From: Phormidium tanganyikae FI6-MK23
Lineage (GTDB): Bacteria; Cyanobacteriota; Cyanobacteriia; Leptolyngbyales; Leptolyngbyaceae
Assembly (NCBI GenBank): GCA_019359175.1
Contig: JAHHHU010000003.1
Span: 124,001-188,000, forward strand
Reading direction: 5' to 3'
DNA length: 64,000 nt
The notes beneath the pieces are model-generated. The model worked only from the letters and a program-made list of their open reading frames with translations. It was not told the DNA's origin and made no database searches. A program made the translations under genes and the position numbers. Positions 57,159 to 58,633 of this stretch are shown piece after piece. Numbering within the stretch: the stretch's first letter is position 1; each line of letters starts with the position of its first letter.

Positions 57159-57798
57159 GCTATACTGTGAGCCTCGTGAATATTCAAAGCTCGATCAGAT
57201 ATATAAGATTCCTGTGGCAGAACAAATTCCTGATACACCAGAAATGCAGCCACTCACCCGCATCCAAATTCTGATCGCGATGGGTGTGACTGCCGTTGTT
57301 TTATTAGTTGTTTCTAAAGTTTGGCTCCATTTCAGTGCTGTGCCTTTACTGTCTGTTCGGTTCTCGGTTCAATCTTTGCTTCAAGGGATTGGATTGGGAG
57401 TCGGAATTTCGATCGCAAGTTCGATTGTCTATCGCATTTGGGGCGAGTACCGCAGAAGTGCTGATCAATATCTCACGTTGGTTCTAAAACCGCTGTTGTT
57501 TCCCGATATTCTCTGGCTTGGACTATTACCCGGATTAAGTGAAGAACTGCTGTTTCGCGGTGTGATGCTGCCAGAGTTTGGATTAGATTTTTTCGGCGTG
57601 CTACTTTCTAGCCTTTGCTTTGGGGTGCTGCACATGAGCAACCTGAAACAATGGTCGTATGTGGTGTGGGCATCGATCGTGGGAGTTGCACTAGGAATGA
57701 GTGCCGTCTGGACGGGAAACTTATTGGTTCCGATCGTGGCGCACGTCCTGACGAATCTGACTTCTGGAATGATTTGGAAATTCAGCGATCGAACTTAA
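57127..57798 (+). CDS. CPBP-family intramembrane protease (Abi family)
   Basis: Up to 223 residues. The start is uncertain: TTG 57127 overlaps DUF3326 by 32 nt, while GTG 57214 would give about 194 residues and leave a 55-nt gap. Four to five membrane helices hold the active-site motifs SEELLFRGVMLPEFG (EExxxR), CFGVLHMSNLKQW (FxxxH) and PIVAHVLTN (HxxxN). CPBP proteases relate to CAAX-processing enzymes; bacterial substrates are mostly unknown. A terminator lies at 57809-57844. Confidence 0.85.
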   Translation: MNALVSFLSPKLYCEPREYSKLDQIYKIPVAEQIPDTPEMQPLTRIQILIAMGVTAVVLLVVSKVWLHFSAVPLLSVRFSVQSLLQGIGLGVGISIASSIVYRIWGEYRRSADQYLTLVLKPLLFPDILWLGLLPGLSEELLFRGVMLPEFGLDFFGVLLSSLCFGVLHMSNLKQWSYVVWASIVGVALGMSAVWTGNLLVPIVAHVLTNLTSGMIWKFSDRT

Positions 57799-58259
57799 AA
57801 ACTTGTCGAACCCTGATTCTCAATTTGAATTTCAGGGTTTTTCATTATTAGCGTCCAAGCATCGCGATATTCCATAGAGCGCGGCTTACGCTGGCGCTTT
57901 TCTGTTTCAACAAGGTGGATCTCGCTGCCATAGTCAATAAAGACCTCGATCGGAAAAACATAAAACAGATCGATCGCCTCAATATATGCAAGTGCAAAAT
58001 CGAAATCTGTGGCACTGTACGCTTCTCGTAGCATTCGTCGCCGATTTGTTTTTGTCCACCGATTGTCTACAACGTAATTGCCAGAAGGCGCATCGAACCA
58101 CGCTGATTTGACTTGAATTCTAACCAAATTGTTTTGAATATCAAACACGAGATCGTAAGGCAAGCGATCGCCAACTGGTCTAAGAACTCCCCACCCTCGC
58201 TTGAGGGCATAAAGAATCGCTGCTTGCTCTGCAATATCGCCTCTGAGTTTGGTATCCAT
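57795..58259 (-). CDS. PD-(D/E)XK endonuclease, I-Ssp6803I-like (group I intron-associated)
   Basis: 154 residues. The nuclease core is visible as GDIAEQAAILYALKRGWGVL (catalytic Glu), PVGDRLPYDLVFDI (Asp), RIQVKSAWFDA (QxK). This matches the PD-(D/E)XK group I intron endonuclease family whose known member I-Ssp6803I is encoded inside the tRNA-fMet intron of Synechocystis. Here the gene lies outside, 55 nt after the 3' end of an intron-bearing initiator tRNA on the same strand, beyond a terminator. The last dozen codons form part of the convergent CPBP terminator hairpin. Confidence 0.8.
   Translation of the reverse strand: MDTKLRGDIAEQAAILYALKRGWGVLRPVGDRLPYDLVFDIQNNLVRIQVKSAWFDAPSGNYVVDNRWTKTNRRRMLREAYSATDFDFALAYIEAIDLFYVFPIEVFIDYGSEIHLVETEKRQRKPRSMEYRDAWTLIMKNPEIQIENQGSTSF
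57809..57844 (+). terminator. Terminator of the CPBP gene
   Basis: AACCCTGATTC pairs with GAA-T-TCAGGGTT and is followed by TTTTC. It overlaps the 3' end of the endonuclease gene on the other strand. Confidence 0.75.
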
Positions 58260-58280
58260 TCACGTAATTTTTCTAATGCA

Positions 58281-58310
58281 AAAAGCTCCAGGATAAAACC
58301 TGGAGCTTTT
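58281..58310 (-). terminator. Terminator after the initiator tRNA
   Basis: AAAAGCTCCAGG at 58281-58292 and CCTGGAGCTTTT at 58299-58310 form a perfect 12-bp stem with a 6-nt loop; on the minus strand TTTTT follows. Confidence 0.9.
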
Positions 58311-58314
58311 AGTT

Positions 58315-58633
58315 TGGTGGCGGGGCATGGATTTGAACCATGGACCTTCGGGTTATGCTTACCACTACAACTTTCGTTGCCTGAATCAGTCAGTTTGTGG
58401 TCTGGACTGTCCCTTCACCTTCAGCTTTCCTGTTAAGGTGCTTGCCTAACCAGTCTCTACACCTTCTCCTTTCGGAGCTTGGTTCGGGATTACCACGCTA
58501 TTGGCTTCCCCGACTTAGACAAGTAAACACATGAAAGTTTCCTATCATGCCGCCCATACAAAAAACTAGCTTTTAAGCGTTTAACTAGTTTTTCATCCGA
58601 GCCCGACGAGCTACCAGACTGCTCTACCCCGCG
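58315..58633 (-). tRNA. trnfM: Initiator tRNA-fMet(CAU), split by a group I intron
   Basis: Exon 1 is 58633-58600 (34 nt, CGCGGGG acceptor strand, D arm, ending at U33). Exon 2 is 58357-58315 (43 nt), beginning with the anticodon CAU and ending with an encoded CCA. Initiator features are visible: an unpaired 1-72 position (C and C), and three G-C pairs GGG/CCC next to the anticodon loop. The T arm is CATGG-TTCAAAT-CCATG. The spliced tRNA is 77 nt including CCA. Promoter TTGCAA/TATACT lies 20-50 nt upstream and a strong terminator follows. Confidence 0.93.
58358..58599 (-). mobile_element. Group I intron (242 nt) in the tRNA-fMet anticodon loop
   Basis: The intron follows exon U33 and ends in G before C34, as group I splicing requires. 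Core segments can be read on the minus strand: Q-like AATCCCGAACC (58481-58491), R-like GGTGTAGAGACT (58452-58463) and S-like AAGGGACAGTCC (58404-58415), where GACT/AGTC form P7. A strong P2-type hairpin (AAAAACTAG/CTAGTTTTT) lies near the 5' end. It resembles the small IC3 introns of cyanobacterial tRNA genes. There is no reading frame inside. Related introns self-splice in vitro. Confidence 0.9.

Follow-up and report, generated by a model that had tools for sequence, protein, structure and literature searches.

The initiator tRNA (tRNA-fMet) gene on the minus strand (58633–58315) of the window, the whole 64,000-nt stretch of cyanobacterial DNA analyzed here, is split after U33 by a group I intron, and a PD-(D/E)XK endonuclease gene lies behind the tRNA gene, outside the intron. 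Based on comparisons of this locus with its relatives, we propose, with a probability of roughly 0.7, that the two constitute a two-part homing element, in which an intron in tRNA-fMet is served by a downstream endonuclease that arose by exit from an intron of this kind. The features of the locus are collected in Table 1.

Table 1. Features of the interrupted tRNA-fMet locus (window positions)
Feature	Position	Strand	Support
PD-(D/E)XK homing endonuclease, I-Ssp6803I type, 154 aa	57795..58259	−	PF11645 E 5.7e-52; 2ost_A E 9.5e-64
Terminator-like hairpin with T-run, between tRNA and endonuclease	58280..58311	−	−19.7 kcal/mol, z −5.6
tRNA-fMet 3′ exon, CCA encoded	58315..58357	−	Sequence reading; ARAGORN with introns allowed
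Group I intron, 242 nt, without ORF	58358..58599	−	Rfam match; covariation
Intron core P2–P9	58358–58555	−	
Intron P1 loop, short hairpin	about 58556–58592	−	
tRNA-fMet 5′ exon, ends at U33	58600..58633	−	Sequence reading; ARAGORN with introns allowed
Promoter-like site TTGCAA-18-TATACT, 5′ of tRNA	58653..58682	−	Weak, 9/12; such sites no more frequent than chance predicts for the region

ARAGORN in intron mode recovered the tRNA gene with a 242-nt intron, and the coordinates agree with the initial annotation, which had placed a group I intron of this length between U33 and C34; in its default mode the program missed the gene. Its anticodon call, Pro(cgg), was rejected as wrong because ARAGORN slides the intron boundary by a few nucleotides. 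The junction was placed between U33 and C34 because group I chemistry calls for a U before the intron and a G at the intron end. The predicted spliced tRNA is 77 nt long; its anticodon stem contains three G–C pairs and positions 1:72 are mismatched, features that we read as initiator marks.

The window insert matched the Rfam model Intron_gpI (RF00028) with 37.1 bits (E 6.7e-7), below the curated gathering cutoff of 50, which is a curator's threshold and no defining trait of the group I class; homologous tRNA-fMet introns scored 56 to 66 bits, above the cutoff. Covariation was examined in an intron alignment of 50 homologous loci covering helices P2, P3, P4, P5, P6, P6a, P7 (with crossing pairs), P8, P9, and P9a. 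Over 48 tested pairs, 95.8% of cells held standard pairs, a level reached in 0 of 500 shuffles, and the paired fraction fell to 43% when partners were slid by one base. Two-sided changes were present in 32 of the 48 pairs, and the core helices P3–P8 with P7, as well as the flanking P2 and P9, are kept by such compensatory changes. The 50-locus alignment settles, at the level of sequence, that the insert is a group I intron, with splicing itself predicted. The P1-loop motif of the window intron, TAAACGCTTA, is common to many introns whose enzymes belong to the cyanobacterial outside clade described below; it is not universal there, being absent from L064 and L031.

The endonuclease ORF is intact, is present as a single copy in the genome, and begins 55 nt from the tRNA 3′ end on the same strand, as originally annotated. 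Database searches confirmed the suspected relationship to I-Ssp6803I: the protein matches PF11645 (Table 1), and its sole PDB match is 2ost, which we take to be I-Ssp6803I and to which it is about two thirds identical. Residues E11, D36, Q49, and K51, presumably the active site according to the literature on 2ost, are invariant across 14 aligned homologues. The assignment to PF11645 is based on the family profile and on these residues; unlike the type member, the window enzyme does not lie inside the intron, and intron location is no defining trait of the family. The "terminator" of the initial annotation, between tRNA and enzyme, is a stable predicted hairpin with a T-run, but it is not among the terminators reported by a pattern scanner. 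A hairpin in a comparable position was judged by eye to be present in most other outside loci. A pattern scan for promoters recognized none for the endonuclease itself, and expression past the hairpin would involve either read-through or an own promoter that the scan missed. At its other end, the endonuclease gene overlaps by 4 nt a convergent gene (57127–57798, plus strand), the product of which looks like a CPBP-type membrane protease; the terminator hairpin of that gene (57797–57850) is read as the last codons of the window enzyme, which also cover the neighbor's stop codon.

The distribution of enzyme and intron was surveyed in 390 genomes of the window's class. A close homologue of the enzyme was found in 16 of them, and only distant homologues were found in 3 more. 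Intronless tRNA-fMet genes are carried by 347 of the 390 genomes but by none of the 16 with a close homologue, and none of the 347 has a close homologue. In ten additional genomes the intron is present but an intact close homologue is not (Fisher p 1e-21 for 16/10/0/347, with class genomes treated as unrelated). The intron-bearing tRNA is beside the enzyme in 15 of the 16 enzyme-bearing genomes and about 1.6 kb away in the other (G047). The enzyme lies downstream of the tRNA in 11 of these genomes (by 50 nt to about 1.6 kb), upstream in 1, and inside the intron in 4. The separation of enzyme and intron that had been noted in the window is real, and the outside layout is common.

A wider scan of 84,980 species genomes, which overlap with those of the class survey, yielded 94 relatives, of which the best 80 were kept as named loci. 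Among these best 80 of 94, enzyme and interrupted tRNA-fMet are paired at 78 loci, the opposite of the scatter away from tRNA genes that the initial annotation had named as evidence against its reading. Specifically, 35 enzymes are inside the intron, 42 downstream, and 1 upstream, and for 2 no tRNA-fMet was found nearby; L071, truncated at the edge of its contig, and L107, where the search motif has been lost from the enzyme, were counted as inside by position, and the inside-to-outside ratio is no fair estimate because the query consisted mostly of cyanobacterial outside forms. Inside forms have their ORF in the P1 loop, with a start about 20 nt from the 5′ end of the intron, and their hosts include Nitrospirota, Methylomirabilota, Myxococcota, Armatimonadota, Chloroflexota, Saprospiraceae, Uhrbacteria, and others, some of which may be misnamed because many are metagenome bins. 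Outside forms occur in filamentous cyanobacteria and in Bacteroidota such as Spirosoma. The split layout is thus recurrent, in dozens of bacteria. With one window only, as before the survey, chance neighbors or an assembly artifact might have accounted for it, but the layout is repeated at 42 named loci in many genera (among the best 80 of 94 relatives), also in genomes with contigs of several megabases; the surveys rule out chance adjacency, and the probability of this explanation as a whole is negligible.

No close homologues were found in viral contigs or on plasmids, and phages contained only distant homologues, of about 30% identity. Two close homologues from Bacteroidota (L089 and L108) had no tRNA-fMet exon pair in the surrounding DNA examined and are possibly fully free enzymes. 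At L045/L007, a partial second endonuclease copy (the first 44 residues) follows just behind the complete outside copy. We considered this fragment as an intron remnant and rejected that reading; it is a partial copy of the locus's own enzyme gene.

The ends of the enzymes bear on how the split layout arose. ORFs of inside forms end in, or read through, the intron core (e.g., ...RETYVRSPLKFGEAASGVIPSQA), and similar C-terminal letters are seen in many of the outside enzymes from cyanobacteria, such as SKENCVCSPVSFGEAGF in L059 and FGKETEEQQPLKFEEFLGDIIPIQAQ in L114. The tail of these outside enzymes corresponds to translated intron core (IGS-P2-P3-P4), in one register. In nhmmer searches, intron-core profiles matched the tails of L059 (E 3e-6), L005 (1.8e-4), L051, L048, L112, L039, and L058, all in a single register at about profile positions 2 to 54, whereas a control with 20-fold more shuffled sequence gave no match at E < 0.1; these E values refer to a small search space, and the controls were single-base shuffles. 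The L059 tail also has an ungapped 50-nt match to L059's own intron. When compared with translated inside cores, the tails of L114, L059, L048, L051, L112, L044, L042, and L005 scored above all 1000 shuffles. The core is part of the ribozyme and occurs in introns that never hosted this ORF; the tail is therefore derived from the intron, and the enzymes that bear this fossil were formerly inside one. Thus, for the main outside group, that of filamentous cyanobacteria, the tails favor exit from the intron over an ancestral stage, the two possibilities left standing by the initial annotation.

The fossil is not present everywhere. The window enzyme has no intron-core tail (p 0.69 versus shuffles), its last codons sitting in the convergent gene's terminator, and therefore its own origin is drawn from phylogeny only. 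Profile search and shuffle test likewise found no intron-core fossil in the outside groups of Bacteroidota and Alkalinema. Remnants of tRNA exon 1, an expected trace of tandem duplication, were not found 5′ of the outside enzymes. Five genomes (G062, G177, G123, G277, and G379) carry intronless tRNA-fMet genes in tandem duplicate, 120 to 370 bp apart; such duplicates could provide an exit route for the enzyme.

In the enzyme tree, the forks of which are based on 142 columns, the window enzyme falls within the cyanobacterial outside clade with moderate support (86/71), although its place becomes an open fork once distant outgroups are added. Because of this grouping and the shared P1-loop motif, the window enzyme likely stems from the same escape, with moderate support from the tree. 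The Bacteroidota outside group looks like a separate event, and the tree needs four to six changes between inside and outside. In the reverse history, collaborative homing would have brought a free-standing tRNA-fMet endonuclease and an intron lacking an ORF together at one site, and enzymes borne inside introns, as in Synechocystis, would be later; we regard this as unlikely. Outside forms are indeed frequent, and a tree that unites them in a single clade falls short of clear rejection (AU p 0.059). Moreover, distant homologues (L129, L131–L137) from unrelated phages and a haloarchaeal virus are free-standing and adjoin tRNA genes in eight of nine loci examined, and the deep ancestor may for this reason well have been free-standing. 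The core tails of the fossil-bearing cyanobacterial clade, however, need a former life inside an intron, and inside forms branch first when the phage homologues serve as outgroup, a rooting that is weak because the branches are long.

Three of the phage loci have the homologue within 2 nt of tRNA-Tyr or tRNA-Asn, others lie within tRNA clusters, and the homologue of Vibrio phage phi-pp2 overlaps tRNA-Met; these proteins may be tRNA-directed homing enzymes without introns. A second, divergent cyanobacterial PF11645 type, with a long C-terminal extension resembling a helix-turn-helix, adjoins an uninterrupted tRNA-Arg(TCT) in three genomes (L018, L021, and L019).

The window's genus holds a full series. 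Two genomes (G170 and G258) have the empty site, an intronless tRNA-fMet between the same flanking genes as in the window. The window has intron and intact enzyme; the enzyme is broken in two species, with codons about 21–104 deleted in G211 and an N-terminal stub left in G282; and G115 has the intron alone. The introns of these four group together (SH-aLRT 98). Homing genes are known to pass through gain, decay, and loss, and the series fits such a homing cycle; what differs in this genus is that the intron survives loss of the enzyme because the enzyme is no part of it. Decay is frequent in this genus and elsewhere (truncated forms), and the hairpin between tRNA promoter and enzyme, with no own promoter recognized, would also suit an outside enzyme that no longer homes and is a decaying relic or has another host role. 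We consider such an outcome improbable, given that the outside enzymes are under purifying selection (median dN/dS 0.10 over 151 pairs), that the active site is invariant, and that linkage to the interrupted tRNA is strict. Intron distances correlate with outside-enzyme distances (r 0.85, p 0.001), as fits a unit that travels together, a pattern that shared vertical descent can equally produce.

Taken as a two-part homing element that arose by exit, the locus would function as follows; we infer splicing, cleavage specificity, and co-conversion, as well as the share of the window copy in the same escape, from sequence. The intron would self-splice from the precursor of the initiator tRNA; because it splits the target in the anticodon loop, it would also protect the chromosome from the enzyme. 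The downstream endonuclease would cut intronless tRNA-fMet at the anticodon region, as the perfect avoidance of intronless genes suggests; its targets would be intronless alleles that enter the cell or are met by recombination. Repair from the interrupted allele would copy the intron, and co-conversion of the 3′ flank would carry along the enzyme gene, located about 100 bp beyond, such that intron, 3′ exon, terminator, and enzyme, about 840 bp together, would form the copied unit. In filamentous cyanobacteria, the enzyme gene would have left a Synechocystis-like intron, taking along about 50 nt of the core at its 3′ end, and would since have been retained as an outside partner.

The I-Ssp6803I ORF of Synechocystis PCC 6803 sits in the P1 loop of a 655-nt tRNA-fMet intron (PMC1995217; Bonocora and Shub 2001; structure 2ost). 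The window shares with that system the tRNA, the family and place of the intron, and the enzyme family (about two thirds identical), and by analogy the two enzymes presumably have the same target; the window intron, in contrast, is 242 nt long with a short hairpin in its P1 loop, and its enzyme is encoded behind the tRNA gene. In other cyanobacteria, tRNA-fMet introns (Biniszkiewicz et al. 1994, as cited in PMC3610870) agree with that of the window in insertion site and intron class, and no adjoining enzyme is described for them in the literature searched. In phage collaborative (trans) homing, as reviewed in PMC3984707 for F-CphI with psbA introns and for the pathway that Bonocora and Shub proposed in 2009, an enzyme likewise lies outside an ORF-less intron and has its target at the intron site (predicted for the window); the window enzyme, too, is linked to and co-occurs with an ORF-less intron. 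There, however, the free enzyme is taken as the source of intron-borne ones, whereas the cyanobacterial outside enzymes carry a trace of leaving the intron. A description of the outside layout for the tRNA-fMet intron system was not found in the literature searched, with subscription journals outside its coverage. As far as that literature shows, this layout, its spread, and the trace of exit are new.

More broadly, we hold it somewhat more probable than its converse that intron-borne endonucleases can exit their introns and persist as outside partners of lasting two-part elements, at the initiator tRNA at least in cyanobacteria, with a piece of ribozyme in the C terminus, and probably also in Bacteroidota, and that the wider family may be tRNA gene-directed, moving in and out of introns. 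In the accepted account, free endonucleases invade introns and thereby give rise to mobile introns; the sequence trace described here records the reverse step, exit from the intron, with enzyme, intron, and site all the same. Close kin of the Synechocystis enzyme I-Ssp6803I are spread over many phyla, and their target ranks among the most conserved in bacteria. A single genus holds the empty site, the intact enzyme, the decaying enzyme, and the intron alone, and gain and loss of the bond between intron and enzyme would therefore be testable with natural alleles.
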